The notes beneath the pieces were generated by a model, which worked only from the letters and a program-made list of their open reading frames with translations, was not told where the DNA came from and made no database searches. Position numbers and translations under genes: made by a program. 48,138 bases of DNA from Alphaproteobacteria bacterium (lineage in GTDB: Bacteria; Pseudomonadota; Alphaproteobacteria; Bin65): contig JAJFFJ010000145.1 in the NCBI GenBank assembly GCA_021776685.1, positions 1 through 48,138 on the forward strand, in the 5' to 3' direction. Shown piece by piece: positions 1,454 to 4,099 of this stretch (within the stretch, counting starts at the first letter, position 1; the number at the start of each line of letters is the position of its first letter).

Positions 1454-1627
1454 ATATCGGGTTTTTCGGCCAGATAGAGTAGCGGTCGCGGCGAAAACCG
1501 CCATATTTCGTCAATTGCACCATATTTTGTAGAAAAACGCATTTCGCTACCAAATTTCGTTGACGCCACGAATCCTGCTGGATAGGGTGCTCTCGCACAG
1601 GTGCAAGACGCGGAAATTCCTGATGCC

Positions 1628-1673
1628 CACGGGCCCGGCCGCCCGGTTCTCCCAACCCTTGGCCGGGCCCGTG
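1628..1673. repeat. Perfect 13-bp GC inverted repeat
   Basis: CACGGGCCCGGCC at 1628-1640 pairs without mismatch with GGCCGGGCCCGTG at 1661-1673 around a 20-base loop that itself contains a GGTT/AACC pairing. It lies 175 bases past the cupin stop. On the plus strand it is followed by the pyrimidine run CTCTCTTCCCCC, not a clean T tract. It may be a weak terminator for the thiolase-cupin unit or a dispersed extragenic palindrome. Confidence 0.5.
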
Positions 1674-1721
1674 CTCTCTTCCCCCTGATGCTCCATCTGA
1701 TACTTTCGTCAATCGGCCCAT

Positions 1722-1749
1722 AAAAAAACGCCCACGATTGTTCGGGGCG
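1722..1749 (-). terminator. Second intrinsic terminator downstream of the structured RNA
   Basis: Read on the minus strand, CGCCCCGA pairs with TCGTGGGCG (one bulged T) around the loop ACAA and is followed at once by seven T residues. This is a standard Rho-independent terminator shape. It lies 62 bases beyond the T tract of the first terminator and would catch read-through from the minus-strand RNA at 1812-2421. Confidence 0.68.
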
Positions 1750-1811
1750 CGACGATGAAGGGCGGCTTCGCGGGGAATGGCGGCTTTGCTGGGCTATTTC
1801 TCGAGGGAAAT

Positions 1812-1886
1812 CCAAAAATAAAAAGAGGCGCCAGGTGCGTAGACGCGGAGTCCTCGCCTGTACCCGAGGGTACACCCTGACGCCTC
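1812..1886 (-). terminator. Intrinsic terminator closing the minus-strand structured RNA
   Basis: On the minus strand GAGGCGTCAGGGTG (1886-1873) pairs with the complementary arm at 1838-1825, with G-U wobbles tolerated, and is followed by TTTTTATTTTT. Inside the arms lies a nested hairpin TGTACC-CTCG-GGTACA at 1859-1874 and a smaller GC hairpin. The T tract lies only on the minus-strand side, which fixes the direction of transcription. Confidence 0.75.
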
Positions 1887-1937
1887 TCTGCCTTCAGCTT
1901 TCCAAAGCTCTCCGACCTCCGGCTGTTTCCACCAAAA

Positions 1938-2211
1938 CCCCTTGCGGGAACCCTGGCTTCCACCTCCTTCGACCGGTCCACTCCTTCCAGCGGTCCGGCG
2001 TTGCCAGTCCACCCCGAAGGGCTTTCCAGCTCCGGCTGCTCCGGCCCTTGCGGGTCCCTGCAACCGACCAGCTCCCCTCTCGGTTCACTGGCCCGCCACC
2101 TCGGCGACTCCAGCCTTGCGACCTTCGTCCACCTCGCGGCGCTACCACTCTCACCTGCCAGCTTCCCGCCGCTTCCACCTGAACCCCCTTGCGGGAACCC
2201 TGGCTTCCACC
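1938..2211. repeat. Exact 27-bp direct repeat inside the structured RNA (1938-1964 and 2185-2211)
   Basis: A 27-base block containing the CCC-GCAA-GGG hairpin and its 3' neighbour is identical at 1938-1964 and 2185-2211, 247 bases apart. Similarity continues imperfectly into TTCCACC on both sides. The shared block implies either an internal duplication or two copies of one structural or protein-binding module within the RNA. Confidence 0.8.
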
Positions 2212-2428
2212 ACATTCCACCAGCCGCTTCGCGGCTTCGGCCTTCTCCCCCTTGCGGGGAACCCGTCCGGTCCGCCTCTTTCGAAGCCTTCCTTCCGGAG
2301 CCGCCTTTGCAGGCGCCTTGACCGCCGACCGACCTACCTTCCGGGGGTGCCGACCTGCACCCTAGGCCGCCTTCCGGCCTTTCGGTCTCCGCAACCCGCT
2401 GCCTCTCGGCCACCGATTGCGTGAGCGC

Positions 2429-2479
2429 ATACTGGGACTGGGGCCTTGCAACCGCAATAAAATTAAAAAAAACTGCGGT
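2429..2479 (-). promoter_or_regulatory. Putative promoter with AT-rich upstream element for the minus-strand RNA
   Basis: On the minus strand, TTGCGG (plus 2457-2452) and CAGTAT (plus 2434-2429) are separated by 17 bases, which suits a weak sigma-70 promoter with a start near 2421. Directly upstream lies an eight-T tract followed by AATTTTA, resembling the UP elements of stable-RNA promoters. ACCGCA/TGCGGT (2451-2456 and 2474-2479) form an inverted repeat flanking the A/T tract. The hexamers match consensus poorly. The support comes from position and the A/T tract. Confidence 0.4.
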
Positions 2480-2788
2480 GGAAGACGGTGGATATATTTG
2501 CCGGTTACTCGGATTCTACCAACAAGGTTATCCACAGAAAGAAAATAGCCCCGGTGCTGAATCACAATCAGGAAACCCATAAGTAATTGGAATCCCGCCA
2601 GATTCCGATGCAAGCTAGATTCTCGGGCAAAAATGCGGTTTGCGGTTCTTTTTTCCGCGAGCTCACAGGCCCGACCAACTAAATGGTGAGCCGGGGCAAA
2701 AATCCCGTGGTGCGGCCCGGTGTCGGCTGTTCCAGACAGCGCTTGCCGCTACACTTGCCGGCCTGTTCAACCATTCTGTGCGACGCCG
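2480..2788. other. Gene-free stretch before purB with DnaA-box match and inverted repeats
   Basis: No protein gene is convincing here. The stretch is less GC-rich than its surroundings. It holds one exact DnaA-box consensus (2528-2536), a GGAATC/GATTCC inverted repeat at 2589-2606, and a GCTCAC/GTGAGC inverted repeat at 2661-2691 that could be an operator for purB. No strong promoter hexamers for purB were found. Confidence 0.5.
2528..2536 (+). promoter_or_regulatory. Single perfect DnaA-box sequence
   Basis: TTATCCACA matches the DnaA consensus exactly. I see no cluster of further boxes around it, so it is more likely chance or a regulatory or titration site than an origin. Confidence 0.4.

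Positions 2789-4099
<1,311 letters not shown>

Follow-up and report, generated by a model that had tools for sequence, protein, structure and literature searches.

The stretch of DNA analysed here (the window, 48,138 nt of an alphaproteobacterial contig, JAJFFJ010000145.1) probably carries a two-RNA module, in which a large structured RNA linked to DnaA-box-like sites is controlled at its 3′ end by a dedicated small antisense RNA. We put the probability of this reading at roughly 0.6. The features of the module are listed by their position in the window.

1560 to 1588, plus strand: predicted sRNA promoter, (CCAAATTTCG)TTGACG at 1560-1565, 17 bp, TAGGGT at 1583-1588, then 6 bp to +1.
1595 to 1680, plus strand: small antisense RNA (sRNA), ~85 nt, convergent with the large RNA and just downstream of it.
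1598 to 1625, plus strand: antisense blocks of the sRNA, CAGGTGC (1598-1604), GACGCGG (1607-1613) and CCTGATG (1619-1625).
1628 to 1680, plus strand: sRNA terminator hairpin, arms 1628-1640 and 1661-1673 (a 13-nt inverted repeat, 100% complementary), with a weak T-run.
1722 to 1750, minus strand: second terminator-like hairpin, read from the sequence; it has seven U, lies downstream of the large RNA and is a putative back-up terminator.
1816 to 2422, minus strand: large structured non-coding RNA (lRNA), ~607 nt, recognised by strand-specific GNRA/UUCG hairpins and folding energy.
About 1824 to 1814, minus strand: terminal hairpin and U-run of the lRNA, marking its predicted 3′ end.
1820 to 1888, minus strand: 3′ domain of the lRNA, comprising stem P1, hairpin A (CUCG/UUCG loop), hairpin B (loop UCCGC) and the U-run.
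1832 to 1848, minus strand: target blocks of the sRNA, CCGCGUC (1848-1842) and GCACCUG (1838-1832), complementary to 1598-1613 of the plus strand.
1876 to 1882, minus strand: third target block, CGUCAGG, the 5′ strand of P1, which pairs with CCUGAUG of the sRNA with one G-U.
2390 to 2421, minus strand: 5′ hairpin of the lRNA, CGCAAUC..GGCC-GAGA-GGC..GGUUGCG, from the fold.
2429 to 2457, minus strand: predicted lRNA promoter, TTGCGG (2457-2452), 17 bp, CAGTAT (2434-2429), read from the sequence.
2487 to 2495: degenerate second DnaA-box-like site, GGTGGATAT, 41 bp from the perfect box.
2528 to 2536, plus strand: perfect DnaA-box sequence, TTATCCACA, upstream of the lRNA.

The promoter and terminator were used to place the ends of the lRNA, and alignment with loci of a sister genus shows sharp borders of conservation. 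The original prediction, made from the letters alone, had put a large RNA at 1812-2421 of the minus strand, which matches almost exactly the ~607 nt delimited by the promoter and the terminal hairpin with its U-run. Transcription would start near 2422 from TTGCGG-17-CAGTAT. This plausible promoter lines up with TTGCCA-17-CAGTAT of related genomes (the g3 loci) and is absent from a scan for the strict sigma-70 consensus. The 5′ hairpin also has a counterpart in the g3 genomes, with a compensated stem (CGCGA..UCGCG, against CGCAA..UUGCG in the window) and a GCAA loop. Two terminators had been predicted downstream. One is in fact the 3′ hairpin of the RNA itself, and the other is the terminator-like hairpin at 1750-1722 of the minus strand; the account was incomplete in that it overlooked the convergent sRNA gene and the DnaA-box-like site at 2528-2536. 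The U-run at the 3′ end is weak in Rhodobacteraceae-type loci. The flanking genes on the plus strand encode a thiolase and a small cupin protein before the locus and adenylosuccinate lyase (purB) after it. purB lies near the lRNA in the window (2792-4099) and in locus L002. In another genus the lRNA is found close to rpsB, a glyoxalase-like gene or both, and the neighbours are apparently conserved only within families (window, L002, L005, L008).

The predicted array of GNRA-capped hairpins on one strand is present. When stems of 3 bp or longer are counted, 14 hairpins on the minus strand of 1812-2422 are closed by GNRA (GAGA, GGAA, GCAA, GAAA, GCGA) and two by UUCG/CUCG, while the plus strand contains none closed by GNRA. 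With stems of at least 4 bp there are six GNRA and two YYCG loops in the window, compared with 0.17 and 0.08 in dinucleotide shuffles. The 607 nt of the minus strand fold at -288 kcal/mol (z = -3.65, or -4.05 by a second estimate) and no shuffle folds as well, an excess of stability that had been proposed as a check on the prediction. Over the wider region 1722-2479, z is -2.3 on the minus strand and -1.3 on the plus strand. Across 34 loci, the mean folding z is -4.25 on the RNA strand compared with -1.69 on the opposite strand. RNA-strand loops in these loci number 54 for GNRA (7.5 expected) and 73 for YYCG (6.1 expected), which is 7-12 times chance, whereas those of the opposite strand are at chance (GNRA, 5 against 4.4; YYCG, 4 against 6.5). 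UUCG and GNRA hairpins swap for one another between lineages. The body of the lRNA has no common alignment across families and was assessed by loop statistics only.

When relatives were searched at the DNA level, conservation across genera was confined to the final ~70 nt of the lRNA. The 3′ domain, which is predicted to double as a terminator, has covariance-model matches in 15 families. Nearly every tail folds as one three-way junction of P1 (11-13 bp), hairpin A with a stable loop, and hairpin B, although the shortest variants (e.g. L161-L164) are without hairpin A. In 54 tail sequences 98% of cells are paired and double-sided changes occur at 16 of 24 pairs, compared with 5.6 in shuffles, in an alignment that was fitted to the model and hence leans toward the structure, with slid controls and shuffles far below. 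Double-change cells number 97, against 22 in shuffles; none of 500 shuffles reaches 16/24, and sliding the partners destroys the signal. Covariation among homologues, a further check named beforehand, is therefore strong in this domain. The strand-biased GNRA/UUCG loops and the covariation show that selection acts on the RNA. Tails from family f60 (L041, L042, L068, L212, L214) have in common a long, conserved loop on hairpin B that resembles GACCTTCCCTTCCAAGC. No partner was detected for them; it may be encoded elsewhere or have been replaced.

Searches with a covariance model built on the 3′ domain found the lRNA in 18 of 289 alphaproteobacterial genomes, and a broader model found it in 40 of 385 (~10%), from 15 families. 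Within single families it was found in 28 of 198 genomes (f23) and 17 of 23 (f128). Family f23 is probably Rhodobacteraceae, since named Frigidibacter (L043) and Dinoroseobacter (L052) records carry a related form; the named lRNA records are mostly Rhodospirillales-type MAGs. A search of 299 genomes across the phylum gave one match outside the Alphaproteobacteria (L202, from another proteobacterial class). This match and one in Flaviaesturariibacter (L049) are weak and were rejected as chance, having repeat-like hairpins, no partner and no DnaA array. Across lineages the lRNA ranges from ~0.15 to 1.2 kb (0.6 kb in the window), and the DnaA-box-like sites lie about 140 to 1280 nt from its tail. 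Some genomes contain two lRNA loci, namely G193 (L016, L029), G017 (L013, L030), G800 and G857; in G193 one copy has a linked sRNA and the other apparently has none. No similar DNA was found in the plasmid collection or the phage collection, leaving a plasmid or phage origin of the locus unsupported.

The sRNA would be transcribed towards the lRNA from a promoter whose layout, together with that of the 5′ end and the terminator, is shared at many loci. Its predicted 5′ end is CACAGGUGC. The order of the molecule is GCACAGGUGC-AA-GACGCGG...CCUGAUG, followed by a 13-bp GC terminator hairpin, and it folds with a z of -4.1. The promoter element ACAAAATTTnGTTGAC-N17-TAnnnn-N6 recurs in other loci, with an upstream ACAAAATTTnG element and with the antisense blocks at the very start of the RNA, and the window's copy was not among the promoters listed by a strict sigma-70 scan. 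Convergent sRNAs with this fixed promoter geometry were found in families f1, f8, f23, f65, f102 and f128 and in the Frigidibacter and Dinoroseobacter records. A scan for the longest match did not suffice by itself to recognise partners, which were instead assessed by their seeds, by their promoters and by permutation. The two RNAs co-occur in 48 analysed loci, where they are convergent and usually ~60-400 nt apart, and additional loci outside this set show the same pair. Six of the seven genomes with an sRNA match also carry the lRNA, and the seventh match is marginal. Several lineages (e.g. f60, f67) have the lRNA but no detectable sRNA, linked or unlinked, and seed searches for an unlinked sRNA in partnerless lineages gave matches only in apparent coding sequence.

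In the window the sRNA gene is bracketed by a 19-nt direct repeat, TTTCGTCAATTGCACCATA / TTTCGTCAATCGGCCCATA (84%), at 1506-1524 and 1704-1722. In one genus a small lipoprotein-like inserted gene (L006, about 560-1530) splits the pair, so that the sRNA is almost 1 kb from its target, and a similar gene adjoins the lRNA in L009. In L200 (f23), DnaA-box-like sites are also found beside the sRNA promoter, at 1682-1705.

The 5′ half of the sRNA is antisense, block by block, to the 3′ domain of the lRNA. The target blocks CCGCGUC and GCACCUG are kept in most of the 48 loci, pairing of the third block is predicted in the complex, and a fourth block (GCAU/AUGC) is added in Rhodobacteraceae-type loci. 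Cognate duplexes have a mean energy of -61.9 kcal/mol, compared with -51.4 (s.d. 1.0) for permuted pairs and -55.5 for the best of 10,000 permutations, an overall figure that includes group effects; within-group permutation tests (P = 5e-5 and 1.5e-4) lessen, and do not eliminate, the influence of relatedness. Changes in the blocks are matched between the two RNAs: UCCGCGUC/GACGCGGA in the window becomes ACCGCGUC/GACGCGGU in L044, CCCGCGUC/GACGCGGG in L060, GCAUCUG/CAGAUGC in L163 and CGGGCUCCGCGUCCA/UGGAUGCGGAGCCCG, a 15-bp shifted block, in L218. A single position shows U-A, A-U and C-G pairs among lineages. In f128 both RNAs are of unrelated sequence, UGUCCCGCCCGGACAAC, and are perfectly complementary over 17 nt. 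Complementarity survives sequence change, as would be expected of an antisense RNA with a dedicated target. In the predicted complexes P1 is replaced by intermolecular helices while hairpin A and the sRNA terminator remain; of 13 complexes examined, 11 have a net gain of -9 to -20 kcal/mol, and the gain is small in L003 (-0.9) and L060 (-4.4).

The region upstream of the lRNA is rich in DnaA-box-like sites. Exact TTATCCACA occurs 37 times upstream of lRNA tails and twice elsewhere in 368 kb of loci, a 54-fold difference in density. Sites like TGTGGATAA and TTATCCACA are most commonly 40 bp apart (20 cases), then 52 bp (8 cases), and at no more than one mismatch a spacing of 39-41 bp is found in only 24 of 85 loci. 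Perfect or near-perfect boxes with conserved spacing by a promoter are what is expected of DnaA-regulated promoters. On the strength of these motifs, binding by DnaA and DnaA control of the lRNA would be the natural interpretation.

We propose that the lRNA is transcribed from a promoter just downstream of the ordered DnaA-box-like group, and that it would be built of a 5′ hairpin, a variable array of tetraloop hairpins and a conserved 3′ three-way junction at which transcription would end. The ~85-nt sRNA would be made from a strong-looking promoter directly downstream on the other strand, and its 5′ half would pair with three blocks of the 3′ junction. The resulting duplex would take the place of P1, so that a protective or terminating 3′ hairpin would be removed, and pairing would most likely trigger turnover or inactivation of the lRNA. 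The lRNA itself would be the effector, as a structural or scaffold RNA, and is probably made in step with DnaA activity or the replication cycle. We infer that the sRNA serves the lRNA, and hence that control runs in this direction, because the lRNA occurs without the sRNA while sRNA matches come with the lRNA (with one marginal exception). A more specific version of this reading is tentative, and we would give it rather worse than even odds: here a replication-coupled, DnaA-controlled lRNA would be ended by antisense unzipping, and its array would be a multivalent scaffold, possibly forming particles like those of GOLLD or ROOL.

The same complementarity would be seen if control ran the other way. 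The sRNA would then regulate mRNAs elsewhere, and the lRNA would be a sponge, its 3′ domain removing the sRNA and its hairpin array providing stability. RNA sponges and CsrB-type titrating RNAs are hairpin arrays, or RNAs that bind an sRNA; the sRNA described here, with its exposed 5′ end, resembles a trans-acting sRNA, and the genome encodes Hfq. However, the occurrence of the lRNA in lineages with no detectable sRNA, while sRNA matches come with the lRNA, argues against a sponge, and a single binding site per lRNA would make a poor one. Moreover, the window's genome contains the split seed CAGGTGC-n-GACGCGG exactly at only one other place, in apparent coding sequence. The locus also differs from sponges and CsrB-type RNAs in that the window's genome is without CsrA and the sRNA gene is linked to the lRNA and appears dedicated to it. 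We therefore regard a sponge as unlikely.

Rather less likely again is an explanation in which the matching blocks are an inverted duplication maintained by gene conversion and the functional part is the DNA element itself, composed of DnaA boxes and an inverted repeat, which might for instance be a DARS-like site or one that titrates DnaA. The fixed-spacing DnaA-box-like array would fit such an element, and the sRNA does look as though part of the lRNA tail had been copied in reverse; the complementarity could partly reflect a shared origin of the two elements. Mere gene conversion is disfavoured because the spacers between the pairing blocks differ between sRNA and lRNA while identity is confined to the blocks. 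The selection on RNA seen in the strand-biased loops and the covariation also counts against it, as does the sRNA's retention of its own promoter geometry and terminator.

An array of short hairpins with GGA-containing linkers is also reminiscent of CsrB, and the linkers might bind CsrA/RsmA. The linkers give little encouragement to a titrating role of this kind, GGA being only 1.17 times the shuffled expectation, and no CsrA gene was found in the window's genome by a search that detected its positive controls. A CsrA sponge was dropped for these reasons as very improbable.

The cluster of DnaA-box-like sites, next to a structured RNA of ~0.6 kb and a small antisense RNA, could equally suggest a replication origin with a primer-like RNA in the manner of ColE1 RNAII/RNAI. 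GC skew shows no sign switch at the locus in either of two 400-kb stretches, one from a contig and one from a complete genome. The locus is thus not oriC, as the skew keeps its sign in two genomes, and a chromosomal origin suggested by the boxes was ruled out. Some genomes carry two copies, which also speaks against an origin, and we consider that reading highly improbable. In ColE1, RNA I and RNA II are a small antisense RNA and a structured RNA of ~0.5-0.6 kb that meet through hairpin loops. The likeness lies in the size of the structured RNA and in its having a small antisense partner. The sRNA (1595-1680, plus strand), however, is encoded at a separate downstream site outside the lRNA (1816-2422, minus strand) and not opposite its target, the 3′ end of the lRNA. 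In addition, the locus is chromosomal and has no origin, and no similar plasmid was found.

That the region instead encodes a Gly/Pro-rich protein on either strand can be dismissed as scarcely credible, for although overlapping ORFs of up to 234 aa are present, they match no Pfam family, the tetraloop bias is restricted to one strand, and the indel pattern refutes coding. Between sister species of a single genus, conservation of the whole lRNA is 94% and its borders are sharp, yet the indels are of 1 and 2 nt, and it is because of such indels amid whole-length conservation that the lRNA is judged not to be coding. Codon-periodic conservation inside the lRNA was absent from the same sister-species comparison and no ORF is conserved, in line with the earlier view that no frame here looks like a protein.

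The lRNA belongs to no known family either, as had also been foreseen. Rfam 15 covariance models, which cover RNase P, tmRNA, group II introns, GOLLD, ROOL and OLE, gave no match in the window at the gathering score and none credible at E up to 10, and in 20 homologous loci they matched nothing but tRNAs. Folding, covariation, and the Rfam and coding tests together support the original prediction of a new large structured RNA in an alphaproteobacterium. The lRNA resembles GOLLD, ROOL and OLE in being large, structured and non-coding, with many tetraloop-capped helices and no ORF (PMC12286853). It differs from them in having no Rfam relation and in a body whose length and sequence vary widely between lineages, so that the comparison first drawn with these RNAs is apt for general appearance while no relation was found. 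We know of no adjacent, dedicated antisense RNA gene for GOLLD, ROOL or OLE. The lRNA is a new RNA family, though large structured RNAs and antisense pairs are each already known kinds; the two-RNA whole may merit a class of its own.

Non-coding RNAs tied to the replication or cell-cycle circuit are known from the same class. CcnA is encoded at the origin, is presumably activated by CtrA and acts on ctrA and gcrA mRNA (PMC8959179), and EcpR1 is a trans-encoded sRNA that modulates the cell cycle (PMC4414408). Neither abstract describes its RNA as a large array of hairpins that is paired with a specific antisense RNA (PMC8959179, PMC4414408). A prior description of the RNA pair was not found in the literature searched, from which subscription journals were largely absent. 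To our knowledge, a large RNA with a linked antisense RNA aimed at its 3′ terminator junction, behind a DnaA-box-like promoter, has not previously been met.

Bacteria have few large structured RNAs that lack an ORF, and for most of these neither a role nor a regulator is known. Three features make the function of the lRNA accessible: its dedicated antisense RNA has a seed that can be defined, its promoter region has conserved DnaA-box-like sites, and its carriers span 15 families, which include at least one cultured Rhodobacteraceae-type strain. Frigidibacter sp. ROC022 is a cultured carrier. Targeting of the 3′ terminator junction, and not of a ribosome site, would be a distinct mode of antisense action. 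If DnaA control is true, replication initiation would be tied to a non-coding RNA across much of the class. Those Alphaproteobacteria that carry both RNAs appear to hold an uncharacterised two-RNA control device.
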